64,000 nucleotides of DNA from Streptomyces sp. ICBB 8177 (GTDB taxonomy: Bacteria > Actinomycetota > Actinomycetes > Streptomycetales > Streptomycetaceae), in the NCBI RefSeq assembly GCF_003144095.1, contig NZ_NSKH01000018.1, positions 751,965-815,964 on the forward strand. The letters are read 5' to 3'. The position numbers and the translations under genes are program-made. The notes under the pieces were generated by a model, which did not search any database, was not told where the DNA came from, and worked only from the letters and a program-made list of their open reading frames with translations. How positions within the stretch are numbered: position 1 is the stretch's first letter; every line of letters starts with the position of its first letter. Positions 13,545 through 24,610 of this stretch are shown one piece after another.

Positions 13545-13816
13545 TGCGGCGCGTTCATGCGAGGACGCGTTTGTCGCGCGTCATCCAGCAAGACATGACG
13601 AATCGGCTCATGCGCCGGGAACCGCCTCGGCGGCCTCGCCGGACAACACGACGGCGCGCGGCGCTCACGACGCCGCCAGGGCTTTTGCGGGGGGTGCTTT
13701 CGTTTGTTGACCGCGAGTCCTCCCGACCTCTCGCCGGGGGTCGGGAACCGGGCGGCCTCCGGTGAGGCCTTGCCCATGCCTTGTCACTCCCGTTCCGCCA
13801 TCGTGCTCGCGCCCGT

Positions 13817-13840
13817 GCATGGTCCCGCTTCACCGGGTAC
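13817..13840 (+). promoter_or_regulatory. Sigma-B-like promoter of stress SDR
   Basis: GCAT-N14-GGGTAC matches the Streptomyces sigma-B-family form GNNT-N14-16-GGGTAY. It lies about 90 bases upstream of the SDR start. The deduced leader contains no other gene. The match is by eye. Confidence 0.5.
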
Positions 13841-13929
13841 TCGCAAAGAGACCGAAATCGCTCCCCACGGCGAACGTCTTGCGGGCGATGCGCTTCTCCA
13901 TCGACCGGACACCGCACGGAGGCCAGAAC

Positions 13930-14817
13930 ATGCCGGAGCGGCACGAACAGCAGCACCCCGCCGACCAGCACCCGAAGCCGGACCTGCCCGCGCAGGACCA
14001 GCCGCATCCGGGCTGGACGGGCCCGATGGACCCGCCGCCGGACCACGGGGAGGAGTCCTACGTCGGAGCGGGTCGGCTGGCCGGACGCCGGGCGCTGATC
14101 ACGGGCGGGGACTCCGGCATCGGAAGGGCCGTGGCGATCGCGTTCGCCCGCGAGGGCGCGGACGTGGCGTTCGCGCACCTGGAGGCGGAGGGCGACGACG
14201 CGGCCGAGACGGCACGCCTGGTGCGTGACGCGGGCCGCAAAGCGGTGCCCGTCGCGTGCGACCTGCGTGAGGAGGACAACTGCGCGGCGCTCCTGGACCG
14301 CACGGTCTCCGAGCTGGGCGGCCTCGACATCCTGGTCAACAACGCCGCCTACCAGATGTCCCAGCCCGACGGCATCGAGGCGATCACCACCGAGCAGTTC
14401 GACCGCGTGATGCGGACCAACCTGTACGCCATGTTCTGGCTGTCCAAGGGGGCCGTCGCCCACCTGCCGGAAGGCGGCAGCATCATCAACACGACATCGG
14501 TCCAGGCGTACAAGCCCAGCCCGCACCTGCTGGACTACGCCACGTCCAAGGGCGCCATCGTCACGTTCACCCAGGGTCTGGCGCAGATGCTCGCGCCCCG
14601 TGGCATCCGGGTCAACGCGGTCGCCCCGGGACCGGTGTGGACCCCGCTGATCCCCGCCACCCTGCCCGACACCGTCGAATTCGGGAAGCAGGCACCGCTC
14701 GGCCGCCCGGCCCAGCCCGCCGAGATGGCGCACGCCTACGTCTTCCTCGCCTCCCAGGAGGCCTCGTTCATCACCGCCGAGGTCGTCAACGCGACGGGCG
14801 GCACACCGATCCCATGA
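13930..14817 (+). CDS. General-stress-type short-chain dehydrogenase
   Basis: 295 residues. A Pro/His/Gln-rich N-terminal extension of about 45 residues precedes a classical SDR fold: GGDSGIGRAVA (cofactor loop), NNAAYQM, catalytic Ser in TTSVQAYKP and YATSK, plus the PGPVWTPLIP segment. The extended SDRs with this head (YdaD/YhdG/YghA group) are general-stress proteins. ATG 13930 follows GGAGG. The sigma-B-like promoter upstream supports stress control (inference). An amide-ligase operon starts 73 bases downstream. Confidence 0.9.
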   Translation: MPERHEQQHPADQHPKPDLPAQDQPHPGWTGPMDPPPDHGEESYVGAGRLAGRRALITGGDSGIGRAVAIAFAREGADVAFAHLEAEGDDAAETARLVRDAGRKAVPVACDLREEDNCAALLDRTVSELGGLDILVNNAAYQMSQPDGIEAITTEQFDRVMRTNLYAMFWLSKGAVAHLPEGGSIINTTSVQAYKPSPHLLDYATSKGAIVTFTQGLAQMLAPRGIRVNAVAPGPVWTPLIPATLPDTVEFGKQAPLGRPAQPAEMAHAYVFLASQEASFITAEVVNATGGTPIP

Positions 14818-14890
14818 CGTTGACGCTCTCGCGTCGGCGCGGCGATCGCCGACCGGGACGTGCCGGTCGTGCGCCACGAGGAGGTGGGCG

Positions 14891-16081
14891 GTGGAGGACG
14901 CGGGACGGACCCTCGGTGTGGAGGAGGAGTTCCTGCTCGTCGACCCGGTCACGCGGCAGGTCTCGCCCGCCGCGCCCGCGGTCCTGGCGGCTGCGGGCGA
15001 CGCGCCGGGCGATGGCGGACGCTTCCATCCCGAGCTGCTGACCGGCCAGGTGGAGCACGCCACAGGGGTCTGCCGCGACCTGCCCGAGCTGGAGCGGCAG
15101 CTGGTGGCGGGGCGGCGGAGGCTGGCCCTGGCCGCGAGCGCACACGGCGTCCGGCTGCTGGCCAGCGGCACCGCTGTCACGACGGCCGACGCGCCCGTCA
15201 CCGCCGGCCCGCGCTACGACCGCATCGCCCGCCGCTTCGCGGGTGTGGTCACCGACTACCACGCCTGCGGTTGCCACGTCCACGTCGGCGTGCCCGACCG
15301 CGACACCGCCGTGGCCGTCGTCAACCACCTCGCCCCCTGGCTGCCCACCCTGCTCGCGCTGTCCGCCAACTCGCCGTTCGAACGCGGGAAGGACACCGGC
15401 TACGCGAGCTGGCGCGCGGTGCGGCAGTGCGGGTTCCCCGGCAACGGACTGCCGCCCTGGTGCGGATCGGCGCGTGCGTACGACGCCATGGTGGAGCGGT
15501 TGGTCGAGTGCGGTGTGCTCGTGGACGCACACATGACGTTCTGGTTCGCGCGTCCTTCCGGCAGACTTCCCACGGTCGAGGTGCGGGCCGCCGACGCGGT
15601 CACCGAGCCCGCCGAGGCGGTGCTCCAGGCGGCGATCACCCGCGCGCTCGTGCGCTCGGCGCTGGGCGACCTGGCCGCCGGGCGGGAGGCCGCACCGGTG
15701 GACCCGCAACTGGGTGCCGCCGCCGTGTGGTCCGCCGCGCGCCACGGGATGACGGGGCCCGCCGTCGACCCGCTCACCGGAACCTGTGCCGGCGCGTGGG
15801 AGCAGACGGACCGACTCCTCCAGCACATCGGCCCCGCGCTGGAGGACACCGGCGACCTGGCCGCCGTACGGCGCGGGCTCGACGGCCTGCGGCGGCACGG
15901 CACCGGGGCGGAGCGCCAGCGCCGTGCCGCCGCCCGGGCCCCCGGCACCGATCCCGCGGCGGCCGTCGTCGACATGCTGATCCGGCGCACCGTGTCCGTA
16001 CGAAACCGGCAGGAATGGGACGACCTTGCCAGGGCACCTGTTACCTCGACGGAGGACCCCGATCCCACGGAGGCACCATGA
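14891..16081 (+). CDS. YbdK-type carboxylate-amine ligase (GCS2 family)
   Basis: 396 residues. The start LGVEEEFLLVDPVTRQVSP is the hallmark of the GCS2 family, ATP-dependent enzymes that join a carboxylate to an amine and include a weak glutamate-cysteine ligase. Further signatures are GCHVHVGVPD, LSANSPF, DAHMTFWFARPS and TVEVRAADA. GTG 14891 has GAGGAGG upstream. First gene of a tight operon with a heme-oxygenase-like oxidase (ATGA overlap), a methyltransferase and a CDGSH protein, so it may act on a small peptide or amino-acid metabolite instead of glutathione (inference). Confidence 0.92.
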   Translation: MEDAGRTLGVEEEFLLVDPVTRQVSPAAPAVLAAAGDAPGDGGRFHPELLTGQVEHATGVCRDLPELERQLVAGRRRLALAASAHGVRLLASGTAVTTADAPVTAGPRYDRIARRFAGVVTDYHACGCHVHVGVPDRDTAVAVVNHLAPWLPTLLALSANSPFERGKDTGYASWRAVRQCGFPGNGLPPWCGSARAYDAMVERLVECGVLVDAHMTFWFARPSGRLPTVEVRAADAVTEPAEAVLQAAITRALVRSALGDLAAGREAAPVDPQLGAAAVWSAARHGMTGPAVDPLTGTCAGAWEQTDRLLQHIGPALEDTGDLAAVRRGLDGLRRHGTGAERQRRAAARAPGTDPAAAVVDMLIRRTVSVRNRQEWDDLARAPVTSTEDPDPTEAP

Positions 16082-17178
16082 CCGCGATTCCCGTCCGGGC
16101 CGGGCTGCCTTCCGTACGACCACAAGCCCGCGCCTGCGCACGGTCCGCGCACCACGCCCCGCCGCCCAGCCCGCGTGGCGAGCTGTCGGCGGCCGTGCTC
16201 GGCGCGCTGACCGGTGCGGATCCCGGCGAACCGCTGCGGCTGCCCCGCCCGAGCGAGACCGCCGCCGCCGATCCGCTCGGGGAGGACGTGCAGCTCACGC
16301 TCTACGTCCTGTACGAACTCCACTACCGCGGCTTCCCCGGCGTCCCGGCGGCGTGGGAATGGCATCCGGACCTGCTGCGGCTGCGCGGTGACCTGGAACG
16401 CGGCTTCGAGGGCGCGTTGCGCGAGCACACGACCGGCGGCACAGACCTTCCCGGCGAACTCGACGCGCTGCTCACCGAGCCGGTCCACCCGCAGGGCCCG
16501 TCCGTCTCCCACCACCTCGCGGACACCGGGGTGTGGTGGCAACTACGCGAACACCTCGCCCACCGGTCCGTCTACCACCTCAAGGAGGCCGACCCGCACG
16601 CCTGGGTCATCCCACGGCTTACCGGGCAGGCCAAGGCGTCGCTGGTGGCCGTGGAGTTCGACGAGTTCGGCGGCGGACGAGGAGAGCGGGTGCACGCGCG
16701 CCTCTTCGCCGACCTGCTCGCCGCCGCGGAACTGGACGACCGGTACGGCGGGTATCTCGACGCCGCCCCCGCCGTCACCCTCGCCACCGTCAACCTGATG
16801 TCGCTGACCGGATTGCACCGCTCCCTTCGCGGCGCCCTCGTCGGGCACTTCGCCGCCGCGGAGATCACCACGGCGCCCTCGGCACGACGCATGGTGCGCG
16901 CACTGGAACGCTCCGGGCACGGCGAGCCCGCGTTCACCCACTTCTACACCGAGCACATCGAGGCGGACGCCGTCCACGAACAGGTGATGCGCCACGAGGT
17001 CATCGGCGCCCTGCTGGCGGCGGAGCCGGAGCTGACCGCCGACGTGGTGTTCGGCATCCAGGCCACAAGCCTGCTGGAGGAACGGCTCGCGGCCCACCTG
17101 ATGAGTGCCTGGAGTGCGGAACGCACGTCCTTGCGGCTACCGCTGCCGGACGGACCGCACGCGGCCACGAACAGCTGA
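16078..17178 (+). CDS. Iron-containing redox enzyme, heme-oxygenase-like diiron type
   Basis: 366 residues. The C-terminal 250 residues carry YELHYRGF, VEFDEFGGGRGE with a following HARLFADLL, and EHIEADAVHEQV. The last two give the Glu/His/Asp ligand set (including HxxxDxxH) of heme-oxygenase-like diiron oxidases. Such enzymes oxidise amines, fatty acids or amino acids in natural-product routes. The first 60 residues are poorly conserved and Pro/Ala-rich. Start ATG overlaps the ligase stop. The pairing with an amide ligase and a methyltransferase suggests a small biosynthetic pathway (inference). Confidence 0.85.
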   Translation: MTAIPVRAGLPSVRPQARACARSAHHAPPPSPRGELSAAVLGALTGADPGEPLRLPRPSETAAADPLGEDVQLTLYVLYELHYRGFPGVPAAWEWHPDLLRLRGDLERGFEGALREHTTGGTDLPGELDALLTEPVHPQGPSVSHHLADTGVWWQLREHLAHRSVYHLKEADPHAWVIPRLTGQAKASLVAVEFDEFGGGRGERVHARLFADLLAAAELDDRYGGYLDAAPAVTLATVNLMSLTGLHRSLRGALVGHFAAAEITTAPSARRMVRALERSGHGEPAFTHFYTEHIEADAVHEQVMRHEVIGALLAAEPELTADVVFGIQATSLLEERLAAHLMSAWSAERTSLRLPLPDGPHAATNS

Positions 17179-17192
17179 CCGGGAGGCTCGCC

Positions 17193-17864
17193 ATGTTGCT
17201 GCTGCGTCCGCCGGGCGTCTACCAACCGCAGTCCGATTCCCTGCTGCTGGCCCGTACCGCACTGGCCCACAAGAGTTCCTGCGCCGCGCGTGAGGGGCGC
17301 AGGCCGCGCGTGCTCGACCTGTGCACCGGCACCGGCGTGCTCGCGCTGGCCGCCGCGCGCGCCGGTGCGGACGTGACCGCCGTGGACATCTCGCGCCGCG
17401 CGGTCCTCGCCGCCCGCTGCAACGCGGCCCTGCACGGCGTGCCGCTGCGCGTCCTGCGGGGCGACCTGGCCGCGCCGGTGGCCGCCGAGCGCTTCGACCT
17501 CGTCCTGGCCAACCCGCCCTACGTCGTCCGCCTCGCCGGCCGGCCCGGCCACCACAGCCGCGCCCGCGCCTGGGACGCGGGGCCGGACGGCCGGGAACTG
17601 GTGGACCGGATCTGCGGCGCCGCCCCGGCACTGCTGGCCCGTGGGGGAGCGCTGGTGATGGTGCACTCCGGCTTGTGCGGCGTGGGCGCCACCTTGCGGC
17701 TGCTCCGGGACGGCGGGCTGCGGGCGGACGTGGCGGCCCGCAGCGACGAGCCGTTCGGTCCCGTGATGTCCGCGCGGGCGGCCGGTCTCGCCGGGCGCGG
17801 CCTGATCGAGCGGGACCAGCGGTCGGAGGAACTGGTGGTGATCCGTGCCGAACGCGTCGTCTGA
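17193..17864 (+). CDS. HemK/Mtq2-type class I methyltransferase
   Basis: 223 residues. GVYQPQSDSLLLA at the N-terminus, SAM motif I VLDLCTGTGVLALAAARAG, motif II VTAVDISRRAV and the catalytic NPPYVV place it with HemK/PrmC/Mtq2 enzymes, which methylate the amide nitrogen of glutamine or a related group. RBS GGGAGG eight bases before ATG 17193. It lies in the ligase/oxidase operon and overlaps the CDGSH gene, so the target may be the pathway product and not a release factor (inference). Confidence 0.9.
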   Translation: MLLLRPPGVYQPQSDSLLLARTALAHKSSCAAREGRRPRVLDLCTGTGVLALAAARAGADVTAVDISRRAVLAARCNAALHGVPLRVLRGDLAAPVAAERFDLVLANPPYVVRLAGRPGHHSRARAWDAGPDGRELVDRICGAAPALLARGGALVMVHSGLCGVGATLRLLRDGGLRADVAARSDEPFGPVMSARAAGLAGRGLIERDQRSEELVVIRAERVV

Positions 17865-18111
17865 CGAGCCGGGGACGGCAGCCGCGGGCAGGCCTCCGGT
17901 GCGCGTCCGGCTCGACCCGGGCGGGCCGCTGATGGTCGAGGGGCCGGTGGAGGTCGAACTCGAGGACGGGACGCTCGTGCGCTCCGACCGGTTCCAGTGC
18001 GCGGTGTGCGTCTGCCGCCGCAGCCGCACCTACCCGTGGTGCGACACCAGCCACCGCAGGCGCTCGCGCGACGGCCGACGCGACGGGGACGAGGCCGAAA
18101 GGCAGCGTTGA
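17845..18111 (+). CDS. CDGSH iron-sulfur protein
   Basis: 88 residues. Ligands Cys55, Cys57, Cys66 and His70 lie in CVCRRSRTYPWCDTSH, the 3Cys-1His signature of mitoNEET-like 2Fe-2S domains. The usual Gly after CD is Thr here. The N-terminal part is a short beta-rich segment (VEGPVEVELEDGTLV). GTG 17845 lies inside the methyltransferase gene (20-base overlap), so translation is coupled. It probably supplies electrons or senses redox for the oxidase in this operon (inference). Confidence 0.9.
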   Translation: MPNASSDEPGTAAAGRPPVRVRLDPGGPLMVEGPVEVELEDGTLVRSDRFQCAVCVCRRSRTYPWCDTSHRRRSRDGRRDGDEAERQR

Positions 18112-18141
18112 GCCGTCGGCACGGCGTGACCGGGCGGTGTG

Positions 18142-18420
18142 TCAGCGGCGCAGCCGCCTGCGGACGACGAGCAGGTCGACCAGCGCGGTCGCAGCGATCA
18201 CACCGCAGACACCCGCGAGCGTGGCCAGTTCCGCCGTGTTCGGCGACCCGTCGGTCGTGGTCGCCGTCGACCACCAGGCCAGGGCACCGGTGCCCGCGGC
18301 GAAGACCACAAGCGCGACGGCGGCCAGCGCCGACCGCAGCCTCAACGGACTGCGCGCGGTCACAGGTTCCGAGCCCGCACGGGGTACGTCCCCGCCGGAC
18401 CGCCCTGGTCGCGCCGTCAT
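18142..18420 (-). CDS. DUF6343-like small membrane protein
   Basis: 92 residues with two transmembrane helices (about 29-50 and 64-85), a polar head containing GSEPVTARSPLRLR, which is the family signature, and a basic end RRRLRR. Function unknown. ATG 18420 follows GAGGAAGG. The gene converges with the CDGSH operon and is divergent from the acyl-CoA dehydrogenase operon. Confidence 0.78.
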   Translation of the reverse strand: MTARPGRSGGDVPRAGSEPVTARSPLRLRSALAAVALVVFAAGTGALAWWSTATTTDGSPNTAELATLAGVCGVIAATALVDLLVVRRRLRR

Positions 18421-18508
18421 GGCCTTCCTCTCACACTTCTCCGTTCGTCTCGCGAGGTCGGGTACCCCCGCCTCCCGCGGGCGAAAACACCGGCGCGCTG
18501 CACTGCTC

Positions 18509-18533
18509 GTTTCCCGTGGGAAAGCGTGGGCAC
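18509..18533 (+). promoter_or_regulatory. Sigma-B-like promoter of the dehydrogenase-glycosyltransferase operon
   Basis: GTTT-N15-GGGCAC, one base off the sigma-B-family consensus, ends 30 bases before the acyl-CoA dehydrogenase ATG. Another GGGTAC at 18460-18465 has a poorer -35. Match by eye only. Confidence 0.42.
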
Positions 18534-18562
18534 TGGCTCCGGTGGGAGATCTGGAGGCAAGC

Positions 18563-19612
18563 ATGGCGCTGTCGCACGAGGACCGGGACGAGGCGGGGAC
18601 GGCCGGTGCCTCGACGGCCGAGGAGCACCGGAAGGCTGTCGCGCGGGAATTCACCCGCCTGGTGGAAGCGGGCGAAGCCGACCTGCCGCTGCCCGGGCAC
18701 GGGGAGACCCGGCGCCGCTGGGATCTGCTGACACGGGTGGCCGAGACGGACCCGGCGCTCGCCCGGCTGGTGGAAGGGCACACCGACGCCCTGGCCATCC
18801 TCGCGGAGCTGGCCGACCTGGGCGTCCCCGAGGTGCCGCACGCCGCGCCGGGCACCCGGTGGGGAGTGTGGGCGGCGGAGCCCCCGGGGCAGGTGCTGCG
18901 GGCGGAGCGCGACGCGGACGGCTCGTGGCGGCTGTCGGGGCTCAAGCCGTACTGCTCCGGCGCCAGGGTGTGCACGCACGCCCTGGTCACGGCGCGTGCG
19001 GGCGAGGAGCGCAGGCTGTTCGCCGTCGAGGTCGACCCGTCGCGCATGGCCCCCGTCCCGGGTAGCTGGCCCGCCGCCGCCATGTCGGGCAGCGACACGC
19101 TGGATGTGCGCTACGTGGACATGCCCGCGGCGCCCGTGGGCCCGCCCGGCGCCTACCTGGAGCGTCCCGGCTTCCAGCACGGTGGCATCGGGGTCGCCGC
19201 CTGCTGGTACGGCGGCGCACGGGCCGTGGCACGCACCCTGTACCAGGCGATGGCCGATCGGCCCGAGCCGCACGGGTTGGCCCATCTCGGCGCCGTGGAC
19301 GCCCAGTTGGATGCCGTCGACGCCGTGCTGGACCGCGCCGCGGCCGAGGTCGATGCCGACCCCGCCGACCGCAAGGGCCGCGCCGCACTGCGTTCCCGAC
19401 GGGTGCGGGCCTTCACCGAACGGGTCGCGTCCGAGGTCGTCGAACGGGTCGGCAGGGCCCTGGGTGCGGCGCCACTGGGACACGACGAACGACACGCGAG
19501 GACCGTCTCGGACCTCACCGTCTACCTGCGACAGCATCACGCGGAACGGGACCTGGCCGCCCTGGGCACCGAACTCGCCGAGCTGACGCGCACCAAGGAG
19601 AACCTCCGATGA
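18563..19612 (+). CDS. Acyl-CoA dehydrogenase-like protein
   Basis: 349 residues, shorter than usual (about 380). The central beta domain WRLSGLKPYCSGARVCTHALV and LDVRYVDMPA are recognisable acyl-CoA dehydrogenase features, and HGGIGVAACWYGGARA corresponds to the start of the C-terminal helical domain. The N-terminal domain is shortened. I cannot place the catalytic Glu with certainty, so it may act on an unusual acyl or acyl-carrier substrate. GGAGG precedes ATG 18563. It overlaps the PIG-L gene by ATGA and heads a four-gene operon. Confidence 0.85.
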   Translation: MALSHEDRDEAGTAGASTAEEHRKAVAREFTRLVEAGEADLPLPGHGETRRRWDLLTRVAETDPALARLVEGHTDALAILAELADLGVPEVPHAAPGTRWGVWAAEPPGQVLRAERDADGSWRLSGLKPYCSGARVCTHALVTARAGEERRLFAVEVDPSRMAPVPGSWPAAAMSGSDTLDVRYVDMPAAPVGPPGAYLERPGFQHGGIGVAACWYGGARAVARTLYQAMADRPEPHGLAHLGAVDAQLDAVDAVLDRAAAEVDADPADRKGRAALRSRRVRAFTERVASEVVERVGRALGAAPLGHDERHARTVSDLTVYLRQHHAERDLAALGTELAELTRTKENLR

Positions 19613-20427
19613 GACTCACGACCGCCCAGGCCACCGCCACGACCGCTTCGCCCGATGCCACGACCACGCGAGCCGCCGCCACGCGACCCGCGGACCCCAT
19701 CGAGGCGCCCGGGACCCCGGAGGACGTCTGGGCAGCGTGGCAGGGGCCCGCGGCCTTCCCTGAGGTGGACCTGGCAGGTCTGCGCGACGTCGTCCTCGTG
19801 GCGGCCCACCCCGACGACGAGGTGCTCGGGCTCGGCGGCACGATCGCACGCCTGGCCGCCGCCGGCGTCCGGCTGACCCTGGTCGCGGTGACCGACGGCG
19901 AGGCCTCGCACCCGCGCAGCACCGCCGTCACCCGCAGGCAACTGGCCCGCACCCGGCGCCACGAGACGCGGCGGGCGCTGGAGGTGCTCGGCGCGTCCTG
20001 CACCGAGATCGTCCACCTGGGCGTGCCCGACACCGCCGTCACCGACCACGAGGAGTGGCTCACCGAGCGGCTGACGCGCGTGTGCGACGGCGCCGACGTG
20101 CTGGCCGCGCCCTGGAGCGGCGACGTGCACAGCGACCACGAGGCCTGCGGCCGTGCGGCGTCGACGGCGAGCCACGCGACGGGCGTGCCGCTGTGGCACT
20201 ACCCCGTGTGGACCTGGCACTGGGCCGTGCCCGGCGACCCTCGCGTGCCCTGGGACCGCGCGGCGCGCGTCCCGCTCGACGAGGCGACGCGCGACCGCAA
20301 GCGCCGGGCCCTGGAGTGCTTCGCCAGCCAGATACACCCGCTCGGCCGCCACGCGTCCGACGCGCCCATCCTGCCCCCCGAGGAACTGGCGCACTTCGCC
20401 CGCGACTACGAGACGGTGCTGCGATGA
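19609..20427 (+). CDS. PIG-L family (GlcNAc-type) deacetylase
   Basis: 272 residues. Zn site AAHPDDEVLGLGG (His67, Asp69-Asp70) and second motif HSDHEACG are those of PIG-L/MshB deacetylases, which remove acetyl groups from N-acetylglucosamine units of glycolipids or small glycosides. The first 50 residues are a Thr/Ala-rich low-complexity extension. Start and stop overlap neighbours by four bases on both sides. Together with the NodS-like methyltransferase and GT2 this suggests a deacetylated, methylated glycoconjugate (inference). Confidence 0.92.
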   Translation: MRLTTAQATATTASPDATTTRAAATRPADPIEAPGTPEDVWAAWQGPAAFPEVDLAGLRDVVLVAAHPDDEVLGLGGTIARLAAAGVRLTLVAVTDGEASHPRSTAVTRRQLARTRRHETRRALEVLGASCTEIVHLGVPDTAVTDHEEWLTERLTRVCDGADVLAAPWSGDVHSDHEACGRAASTASHATGVPLWHYPVWTWHWAVPGDPRVPWDRAARVPLDEATRDRKRRALECFASQIHPLGRHASDAPILPPEELAHFARDYETVLR

Positions 20428-21050
20428 GCACACCGGCGCAGTACTTCGCCGAGATGTACCGGGACAGCGACGACCCGTGGCGGCTCGCCGAGCGGTGGTA
20501 CGAACGGCGCAAGTACGCGCTCACCATGGCCGCGTTGCCCCGTGAGCGCTACCGCGACGCGTTCGAACCCGCGTGTTCGGTCGGCGTTCTCACCCGGCTG
20601 CTGGCCGACCGGTGCGACCGCCTGCTCAGCTGCGACCGAGTGCCACGCGCCGTGGACGCCGCCCGCCGCCGCGTGGCGGGCCTCGCGCACGCCACCGTCG
20701 AGCAGCGGGTGCTGCCCGCCCAGTGGCCGACCGACCGCCGCTTCGACCTCGTCGTGCTGTCGGAGATGCTCTACTACTTCAGCCCTGACGAGGAGCGCAC
20801 GCTGCTCGACCAGGCGACGGCGTCGCTGGAGCCGCAAGGCACCCTGGTGGCCGTCCACTGGCGTCACCCCGTCGACGACCACGCGCAGACCGGCGACGAA
20901 GCGCACCGGGTGCTGCGCTCCGTCCCCGGGCTGGCCCGGGTCGCGGCGCACGAGGAACCGGACTTCCTGCTTGAGGTGTTCGCACGGTCCTCGCGCCCCG
21001 GCGCCGACCCGCGGAGCCTGTCGGTGGCCGCGCTGGAAGGCCTCGTGTGA
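20424..21050 (+). CDS. NodS-like SAM-dependent methyltransferase
   Basis: 208 residues. The start YFAEMYRDSDDPWRLAERWYERRKYALTMAALP and then FEPACSVGVLTRLLADR and VLSEMLYYF are the NodS family pattern. NodS N-methylates the deacetylated end of rhizobial chito-oligosaccharides. The acidic SAM motif is changed to ACSVGVLT, as is normal in this family. Coupled by overlaps to the deacetylase before and the GT2 after. An N-methylation of the amine freed by the PIG-L enzyme is the simplest reading (inference). Confidence 0.88.
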   Translation: MSTPAQYFAEMYRDSDDPWRLAERWYERRKYALTMAALPRERYRDAFEPACSVGVLTRLLADRCDRLLSCDRVPRAVDAARRRVAGLAHATVEQRVLPAQWPTDRRFDLVVLSEMLYYFSPDEERTLLDQATASLEPQGTLVAVHWRHPVDDHAQTGDEAHRVLRSVPGLARVAAHEEPDFLLEVFARSSRPGADPRSLSVAALEGLV

Positions 21051-21802
21051 TCCGGGCGGTCCTCGTCGTGGTTCCCGCACACGACGAGGAGGCGCTCATC
21101 GCCGACTGCCTGGCGTCGGTGGCCCGGGCCGCCGCGCACCCCCGGCTGGCGGGCGTGGCGGTGGCGACGACGGTCGTCGCGGACGCCTGCCGCGACGACA
21201 CGGCGGCGATCGCCCGACGACACGGTGCCCGGGTGGTGGAGGTCGTACGGCGCAACGTCGGCGCGGCCAGGGCGGCCGGCACCAGGTCCGCGCTCACCGA
21301 GGCGACGGCCACCGGACTCGCTCCGGCCTCGGTGTGGCTGGCCCACACCGACGCCGACAGCCAAGTGCCGCACGACTGGCTCGCGGACCACCTCGACCGG
21401 GCCGCGGAGGGCTTCGACGCCGTGCTGGGCACCGTCGACGTCCACGGCTGGTCACGGCACGCCCCGCTGACCCGGGTGCGCTACCTGCACGACTACCACG
21501 CCTACCGCGCGACGTCGCGCGAGCACCCGCACGTCCACGGCGCCAACCTCGGAGTGCGAGCCGACGCCTACCTGGGCGCGGGTGGCTTCCGGCCCCTGGC
21601 CACCGGTGAGGACCGTGCGCTGGCCGCCGCTCTCGAACGCCGCCGGTGCCGCATCCACCGATGCGACAGCCGCCCGGTGCGCACGTCGGGGCGTCGGGAC
21701 TTCCGCGCTCCGGGAGGGCTCGGCAGCCTCCTGGCCGACATCGCTGCGACGCGGGAACAGAGCGTCGTGCCCCCGCCCCCGCTGTCCCCGGGCGTAGGCT
21801 GA
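21047..21802 (+). CDS. GT2-family glycosyltransferase
   Basis: 251 residues. VVVPAHDEEALIADCLASV, VVADACRDDTAAIARRHG and the DxD-type metal motif HTDADSQVP are typical of GT-A fold, family 2; ANLGVRADAYLGAGGF and GEDRALAAAL follow as expected. No transmembrane helices, so cytosolic. GTG start overlaps the methyltransferase stop. Last gene of the operon 18563-21802. Confidence 0.9.
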   Translation: MIRAVLVVVPAHDEEALIADCLASVARAAAHPRLAGVAVATTVVADACRDDTAAIARRHGARVVEVVRRNVGAARAAGTRSALTEATATGLAPASVWLAHTDADSQVPHDWLADHLDRAAEGFDAVLGTVDVHGWSRHAPLTRVRYLHDYHAYRATSREHPHVHGANLGVRADAYLGAGGFRPLATGEDRALAAALERRRCRIHRCDSRPVRTSGRRDFRAPGGLGSLLADIAATREQSVVPPPPLSPGVG

Positions 21803-23468: not shown

Positions 23469-23650
23469 GGCTGTCCCTCCGGTAGGTGATCGACCGGTCG
23501 GCCTCCAGGCGTACGGCTTCCCCGCGAGGTAGCGGCTACACCTGGCGGTGGCCGGTTCCGTTACGCCGCCGGGGCGGGGGGCCTACGCCGCAGGGAGTGG
23601 CGCGCGTGGCGGCGCGTTTGGGGTCAGCCGGTCGTGGCAAACCGCTTCCC

Positions 23651-24610
23651 ATGTGGCCGATTTCCGTGAAACGCCTGTCCTCGTACCTCGCGGTGTCCCC
23701 GACCTCCTCACCACCGGCGCCTTGCGCGGCCGACGCCGCCCTGAGGGCCGCTGAGCGGTTGCGCGACGCGCTGGACGCGCTGGAGCGGCCCTCGGTGCTC
23801 GACCGCGCCGTCGGCCCCGTGCAGCGCCTCGTGCGGGCCCTGCCGCTGGGGGAGGGGCGCGACGTGCTGCACGGACGGCACCTCGGCCACCCCCTGCACC
23901 CGGCGATGGTGCAGCTGCCGGTCGGCGCCTGGCTGTCGGCAGGGGTGCTGGACGCCCTGCCGGGTGCCCGGCGCGGCTCGGGAACGCTGATCGCCGTCGG
24001 CCTCGCCGGTGCCTTGCCCGCGGCGCTCGCGGGCTGGGTCGACTGGGCGGAACAGCACGAACAGCAGATGCGCACCGGCCTCGTCCACGCCCTCACCAAC
24101 GGCGCCGCCATCGCCCTGTACACCGGCTCCCTGACCGCGCGACTGCGAGGCCGGTCCGGACGGGGCCGCCTGCTGGCCTACGCGGGTCTCGCCACGGTCG
24201 GCTTCGGCGGGCTGCTGGGCGGCCACATGGCCTACCGGCAGGCCGCGGGCGCCAACAAGACCGAACCGGTGCCCCACCTCGTCGAACCCGGCTGGCACGC
24301 GATCGGCCGCACCGAGGAGTTCGCGGTGGGCGAGCCGGTGCGCAGGACACTGGGGGAGGTCCCGCTGCTCGTGGTGCGCGTGGACGAGGCCACGGTACGA
24401 GTGCTGGGCGACCGGTGCAGCCACTTCTCCGGCCCGCTGTCGGACGGCGAGGTCGCCGACGGCTGCGTCGAATGCCCCTGGCACGGAAGCGTGTTCAGGC
24501 TCTCCGACGGTCTGAACGTGCGCGGCCCAGCCACCGCGCCGCAGCCTTCCTTCGAGACGCGGACGCGACCCGACGGCACGCTTGAGGTCCGCCTGCCGAA
24601 CGCCGGCTGA
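23651..24610 (+). CDS. Rieske 2Fe-2S protein fused to DUF2231 membrane domain
   Basis: 319 residues. Residues 75-210 form a DUF2231 membrane domain (LHGRHLGHPLHPAMVQLPVGAW, then four helices with conserved His). Residues 215-315 form a Rieske domain with CSHFSGPLSDG and CPWHGSVF, i.e. both Cys-His pairs. Probably a membrane electron carrier with the cluster on one face. ATG 23651 has no good RBS; an in-frame GTG a few codons later is possible. It converges with a His-rich membrane protein that could be its redox partner (inference). Confidence 0.88.
   Translation: MWPISVKRLSSYLAVSPTSSPPAPCAADAALRAAERLRDALDALERPSVLDRAVGPVQRLVRALPLGEGRDVLHGRHLGHPLHPAMVQLPVGAWLSAGVLDALPGARRGSGTLIAVGLAGALPAALAGWVDWAEQHEQQMRTGLVHALTNGAAIALYTGSLTARLRGRSGRGRLLAYAGLATVGFGGLLGGHMAYRQAAGANKTEPVPHLVEPGWHAIGRTEEFAVGEPVRRTLGEVPLLVVRVDEATVRVLGDRCSHFSGPLSDGEVADGCVECPWHGSVFRLSDGLNVRGPATAPQPSFETRTRPDGTLEVRLPNAG

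Follow-up and report, generated by a model that had tools for sequence, protein, structure and literature searches.

What do a carboxylate-amine ligase, a heme-oxygenase-like diiron oxidase (HDO), a methyltransferase (MT) and a CDGSH-type iron-sulfur protein do together when their genes are packed end to end? The question arises in a 64,000-nucleotide stretch of Streptomyces sp. ICBB 8177 (contig NZ_NSKH01000018.1, positions 751,965 to 815,964), called the window here, for which an earlier note had proposed a compact biosynthetic pathway encoded by four adjoining genes. The four genes are there as described, on the plus strand and with Pfam matches that agree (Table 1): the ligase and HDO genes overlap by 4 bases, 14 bases separate the HDO from the MT, and the MT and CDGSH genes overlap by 20 bases. 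The HxxxDxxH oxidase motif is present as H293-D297-H300 of the HDO, and the MT and the CDGSH protein carry the NPPY (N107-Y110) and CxC..CDTSH motifs. The conserved heart of the group is the HDO and the CDGSH protein, and the note gave the ligase too much weight.

Table 1. Features of the four-gene run and its upstream neighbor, with positions in the window (pLDDT, predicted local distance difference test).
Feature	Position	Strand	Match or remark
YbdK-type carboxylate-amine (glutamate-cysteine-like) ligase, 396 amino acids	14891..16081	+	GCS2 3.8e-50; TIGR02050
HDO, 366 amino acids	16078..17178	+	PF14518 Haem_oxygenas_2 3.8e-54; model pLDDT 89.4
HemK2/MTQ2-like class I methyltransferase, 223 amino acids	17193..17864	+	MTS 3.1e-16; TIGR00537
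Single-domain CDGSH [2Fe-2S] protein, 88 amino acids	17845..18111	+	zf-CDGSH PF09360 3.5e-15
HDO E170, auxiliary (fourth) carboxylate of predicted 3-His/4-carboxylate set	16585..16587	+	
HDO E196...H206, predicted ligands, first core helix	16663..16695	+	
HDO E262, predicted ligand, second core helix	16861..16863	+	
HDO H293-x3-D297-x2-H300, predicted ligands, third core helix	16954..16977	+	
NPPY motif of MT (N107-Y110)	17511..17522	+	
CDGSH cluster motif C55-x-C57...C66-D-T-S-H70	18007..18054	+	
SDR oxidoreductase	13861..14817	+	adh_short_C2 7.6e-59; start uncertain
SigB-like promoter pattern GNNT-N14-GGGTAC, upstream of SDR	13817..13840	+	pattern match only

We collected 80 loci with the HDO protein alone as query and counted partner genes within 4 kb. 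A CDGSH gene is present in 78/80, the MT in 74/80, the ligase in 56/80 and all four genes in 53/80; two of the six loci lacking the MT (L013 and L015) end 315 and 614 bases past the HDO match. Since the loci were chosen by the HDO only, the near-constant presence of the CDGSH gene argues that the grouping is not due to chance. Eleven gene patterns occur, counting missing genes, and the HDO, CDGSH and MT genes are arranged in five different orders; linkage kept through so many rearrangements points to a shared function. In 69/72 loci the MT gene overlaps the CDGSH gene or is within 60 bases of it, and the ligase and HDO genes mostly overlap or nearly touch. The commonest arrangement (45/80 loci) has ligase-HDO facing CDGSH-MT, and these two operons could be read as separate units that are joined by shared regulation only. 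That adjacency is kept through the five orders, and that the genes co-occur across genomes, makes such a division of function highly improbable.

Pairwise distances among the proteins are correlated as well (HDO-MT 0.82, HDO-CDGSH 0.62, MT-CDGSH 0.57), but species descent alone could yield such values, and tree congruence was therefore set aside as evidence. A joint horizontal transfer of the four genes, suggested by 91 to 95% protein identity between Kibdelosporangium and L050, a record labeled Rhodococcus rhodnii NRRL B-16535, was also dropped because the whole locus, flanks included, is about 88 to 94% identical in DNA to Kibdelosporangium aridum. The flanks are as alike as the four genes, and the species label of this record is probably wrong.

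Wider samples, with partners counted within 10 kb, show which members of the group travel together. Of the 31 relatives compared, 8 lack a strong HDO and the other 23 have one, at 24 loci in all. The HDO loci include a CDGSH gene in 24/24 cases, the MT in 21/24 (threshold, E = 1e-40) and the ligase in 7/24; of the MT exceptions, G008 and G023 have no match at the threshold (G008 has a partial one) and the MT of G010 lies 224 kb away. The 8 relatives without a strong HDO have neither an MT at the same threshold nor a single-domain CDGSH protein; the CDGSH matches of G011, G021 and G024 are all in long, two-copy frames. In a class-level sample of 118 genomes, 53 have an HDO (54 loci) and 65 have none. 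A CDGSH gene accompanies the HDO in 45/54 of these loci and the MT in 17/54, and genomes without an HDO have a CDGSH match in 5 of 65 cases and an MT in none. When the list is split after the 21 best-scoring HDO loci, the nearer loci have CDGSH in 20/21 and the MT in 17/21, compared with 25/33 and 0/33 for the farther loci. Two genomes with two HDOs (G017 and G068) have a CDGSH gene beside each copy. At the phylum level an HDO was found in 28/149 genomes, and in 9 of 18 regions inspected a CDGSH motif lies within 2 kb of it, with all four genes present in one (L168). Thus the possibility raised in the note, that the genes occur apart in relatives, is not what the 80 loci, the 31 relatives and the class sample show; linkage is strong and the grouping stands. 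Because CDGSH is kept near the HDO across the class and phylum samples, and the MT less so, the HDO and CDGSH protein look like an old pair, accompanied by the MT and ligase in many lineages, with the ligase optional.

Other methyltransferases with an [ND]PP[YW] motif occur near farther-clade HDOs (L149, L150, L152 and L155, and L154 by eye), which may hint at a methylation step recruited more than once. A glycosyltransferase-like gene lies directly 3' of the HDO in 5/20 farther-clade regions (L140, L141, L143, L145 and L146).

The HDO itself is readily assigned, with a score of 183.6 bits against PF14518 (cut-off, 28.9), the sole Pfam domain found in its 366 residues, without a C-terminal cupin domain. 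It is 88% identical to the protein of Streptantibioticus parmotrematis (L002) and 89% identical to that of G001, in the genus of the window's organism, which suggests that this organism is a near relative of Streptantibioticus. By profile, its top matches among solved proteins are HrmI (1.5e-12), SznF (1.9e-12) and RohS (6e-11). The predicted model is confident (mean pLDDT, 89.4), and its top fold match is again HrmI (Z = 32.9; root mean square deviation, 2.4 over 305 residues), followed by SznF (Z = 28.9; 3.1 over 309 residues), RohS (27.6), FlcD (24.6), CADD (19.8), UndA (16.6) and BesC (16.3).

The core of three histidines and three carboxylates (3H/3C) of the HDO superfamily is present as E196, H206, E262, H293, D297 and H300, and neither these six residues nor E170 vary among 44 family members or among 38 sequences from farther away. 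In the profile alignment E170 falls on a Glu of SznF that we take to be the auxiliary ligand of that enzyme, and the spacing of all seven residues presumably fits the SznF set. The ligand set of the HDO is thus predicted from sequence to be of the SznF type, with three histidines and four carboxylates (3H/4C). Residue 203 (E/D) was considered as a further ligand and left out because it varies in the farther clade. Our comparisons with the literature are drawn from excerpts of PMC13232832, PMC13108848, PMC13185094, PMC10724926 and PMC8346170. In the excerpted review, 3H/4C proteins make up about a quarter of HDOs, and SznF, CmlI and AurF are all 3H/4C N-oxygenases.

HDOs also perform C-C cleavage, desaturation and rearrangement, and the enzyme could act in such a way, like BesC or MboA, on an amino acid or a peptide made by the ligase; in the excerpts on MboA, the substrate is a tripeptide from two ligases. 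This is quite unlikely, since UndA and BesC are much farther from the HDO in fold than HrmI and since the named examples of its ligand set are N-oxygenases.

The CDGSH protein scores 56.4 bits against PF09360 (cut-off, 29.5) and is the only match to that family in its own genome. The columns of its C-x-C...P-x-C-D-x-S-H motif are invariant in 30 aligned sequences, and zf-CDGSH is the only Pfam domain in its 88 residues, without a flavin reductase domain of the MboB kind. The MT scores 109.4 bits against TIGR00537 (cut-off, 87) and 95.8 bits, below the cut-off of 199.1, against the PrmC release-factor model TIGR03534. Its NPPY motif is invariant in 31 aligned MT sequences, and NPPY methyltransferases are known for methylating planar nitrogens. 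The nearest solved structure is N6AMT1/HemK2 (1.7e-25), with PrmC also among the nearest. These are protein methyltransferases, and the MT may likewise methylate a protein glutamine or lysine, with the HDO and the CDGSH protein acting on the same target, which would suit the tight MT-CDGSH spacing. We regard this as very unlikely: the HDO and CDGSH genes are paired without this MT in 25/33 farther-clade loci, and the loci point to no protein target.

The ligase scores 249.5 bits against TIGR02050 (cut-off, 176.4), and its nearest solved structures are those of YbdK (1r8g and 1tt4). A model of EgtA, the ergothioneine ligase, if the library includes one, is not among its 9 NCBIfam matches. A second YbdK-type ligase, 46% identical, is encoded elsewhere in the same genome (G000:C20:109797-110828).

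Taken together, the reading that we tentatively favor, although it falls short of probable, is that the module forms a small oxidative pathway in which the HDO N-oxygenates an amino acid or dipeptide, the CDGSH protein serves as carrier and a nitrogen is methylated. The HDO would bind two irons and activate O2 and, by analogy with its nearest relatives, would most likely place oxygen on an amine, guanidine or amide nitrogen, either in an amino acid or in a dipeptide made by the ligase. The CDGSH protein would be its dedicated one-electron carrier and would re-reduce the two irons after each turnover. Either ahead of the oxygenation or following it, the MT may methylate a planar nitrogen in the same compound, and the YbdK-type ligase, where present, may form an amide with an amino acid. 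The data show what the genes are, that their linkage is conserved and that the predicted metal ligands are conserved too; from these we infer which metals the module would hold, how electrons would be passed on, that a nitrogen is oxygenated, in what order the steps would run, and what kind of substrate and product are involved.

A small-molecule pathway, as the note proposed, is plausible because the nearest solved HDOs are N-oxygenases of amino acids or aminoimidazole and because partial precedents exist in mangotoxin and in N-oxygenase chemistry. The note's interpretation is supported in part: the ligase is not core, the farther clade keeps CDGSH without the MT, and no transporter or extra pathway gene recurs widely. 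A bolder version, which we hold to be somewhat unlikely, is that the HDO and CDGSH protein are an oxygenase-reductase pair of undescribed type, old in Actinomycetota, whose product would be a small amino-acid derivative, N-oxygenated and in most cases N-methylated, that serves the cell's ordinary physiology as a protectant, a signal or a metal ligand and is not an antibiotic.

Several observations weigh against an N-oxygenating pathway built on this pair. CDGSH proteins also have roles besides electron transfer. No CDGSH match lies within 10 kb in 9/54 class-sample HDO loci, and the motif is missing in 9/18 phylum-level regions; G218 has two HDOs, and one of them is among these. Many loci do without the ligase (present in 56/80 loci, and in 7/24 in relatives), and no transporter, regulator or tailoring gene is widely recurrent near the module. 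The closest fold match, HrmI, is a 3H/3C protein, whereas the HDO here has an invariant fourth carboxylate. More generally, a common fold does not settle the reaction, and in the excerpted literature HDOs with similar ligands differ in their chemistry.

The main alternative view of the locus is that it serves stress protection, the HDO and CDGSH protein dealing with peroxide, O2 or loose iron when cells dry out or starve and the MT and ligase serving repair or redox buffering. The excerpted work on DtpC describes an HDO that is co-transcribed with the catalase KatE and limits H2O2 in dried cells in a manner that needs its HDO residues, although DtpC may itself be biosynthetic. In the window, a SpoIIE phosphatase and an SDR oxidoreductase are encoded near the four-gene run, but a scan of 10 window proteins revealed no catalase. 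Of the [ligase-]HDO operons, 21/79 are preceded by a SigB-like pattern, compared with 74/558 control genes from the same loci; the pattern is loose, the loci are related, and MT operons have no excess (4/73, compared with 109/1004 controls). With a modest excess at one kind of operon and none at the other, a SigB regulon was set aside as main evidence. Recurrent neighbors are few and mixed: among 119 neighbor proteins from 21 loci, in which stress genes were sought, no family is shared by more than 5 loci. The methyltransferase is also left unexplained, and we consider a purely protective role unlikely. A stress-induced metabolite would fit both this view and the N-oxygenating pathway.

In 10/80 loci (L007, L011, L012, L014, L016, L017, L030, L048, L059 and L078) the gene immediately 5' of the [ligase-]HDO operon, in the same orientation, encodes an FAD-dependent oxidoreductase, too few cases for a core gene; the member in L026 has a Rieske domain. 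The SDR gene of the window ends 73 bases 5' of the ligase on the same strand and is perhaps co-transcribed with the four genes. A relative (57 to 58%) is also found near the HDO in L151 and L152. Positions 13600-18700 gave no match to a sigma-70 promoter pattern or to a terminator pattern.

Downstream, at 18422-21799, a tightly packed run encodes an acyl-CoA-dehydrogenase-like protein, a PIG-L deacetylase, a NodS-like methyltransferase and a family 2 glycosyltransferase, and looks like a unit separate from the HDO module. Among the compared loci, the acyl-CoA-dehydrogenase-like gene was confined to the two that come from the window's own genome. A membrane protein encoded at 23486-24610 has a Rieske-like motif at its C-terminus (by eye), and relatives of it adjoin the HDO in L091, L153 and L015.

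HDO enzymes are already known as a class, and the HDO-CDGSH module is a variant of HDO systems; our searches of an open-access library found no publication on the module. According to the excerpted review, HDOs number more than 10,000, and a function is known for about a dozen. If our reading is true, the pair would provide a natural electron donor for an enzyme class whose assays often rely on artificial reductants, and would allow a clear test of the role of CDGSH proteins in bacteria. Soil actinomycetes, antibiotic producers included, would also commonly make a metabolite that has been overlooked.

Among known systems, the bes cluster of Streptomyces cattleya also places an HDO, BesC, alongside an amino-acid ligase, with a halogenase and other genes, but BesC is far from the present HDO in fold (Z = 16.3). 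The central domain of SznF, the streptozotocin N-oxygenase, shares its fold (Z = 28.9) and 3H/4C set; unlike the HDO, SznF has a C-terminal cupin domain, and we know of no CDGSH partner for it. The SznF substrate is given as methylated arginine in the excerpted literature. HrmI and BelK, N-oxygenases that convert a lysine side-chain amine to a nitro group, give the best fold and profile matches but are only 17 to 18% identical and differ in their 3H/3C set, as reported for HrmI in the excerpts. The azomycin N-oxygenase RohS is similar by profile (6e-11) and fold (Z = 27.6) but distant in sequence; the excerpts describe the 281-residue SaRohS as acting on 2-aminoimidazole, and RohS as assayed with phenazine methosulfate and NADH. 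DtpC of Acinetobacter baumannii is, like the present protein, an HDO of ordinary cells, important there for survival of drying, but it belongs to a Gram-negative organism and an operon with katE, and the excerpts mention no CDGSH protein or methyltransferase. MboA and MboB of the mangotoxin system, for which the excerpts likewise mention no methyltransferase, are similar in organization, with an HDO that needs a dedicated Fe2S2 redox partner and acts on a ligase-made peptide. MboB carries a flavin and uses NAD(P)H, in contrast to the tiny CDGSH protein with no flavin domain. MboAB has been called, in the same excerpts, perhaps the first characterized dedicated pair of an HDO and its redox partner, and a phylum-wide HDO-CDGSH pair, if true, would add a second and simpler kind.

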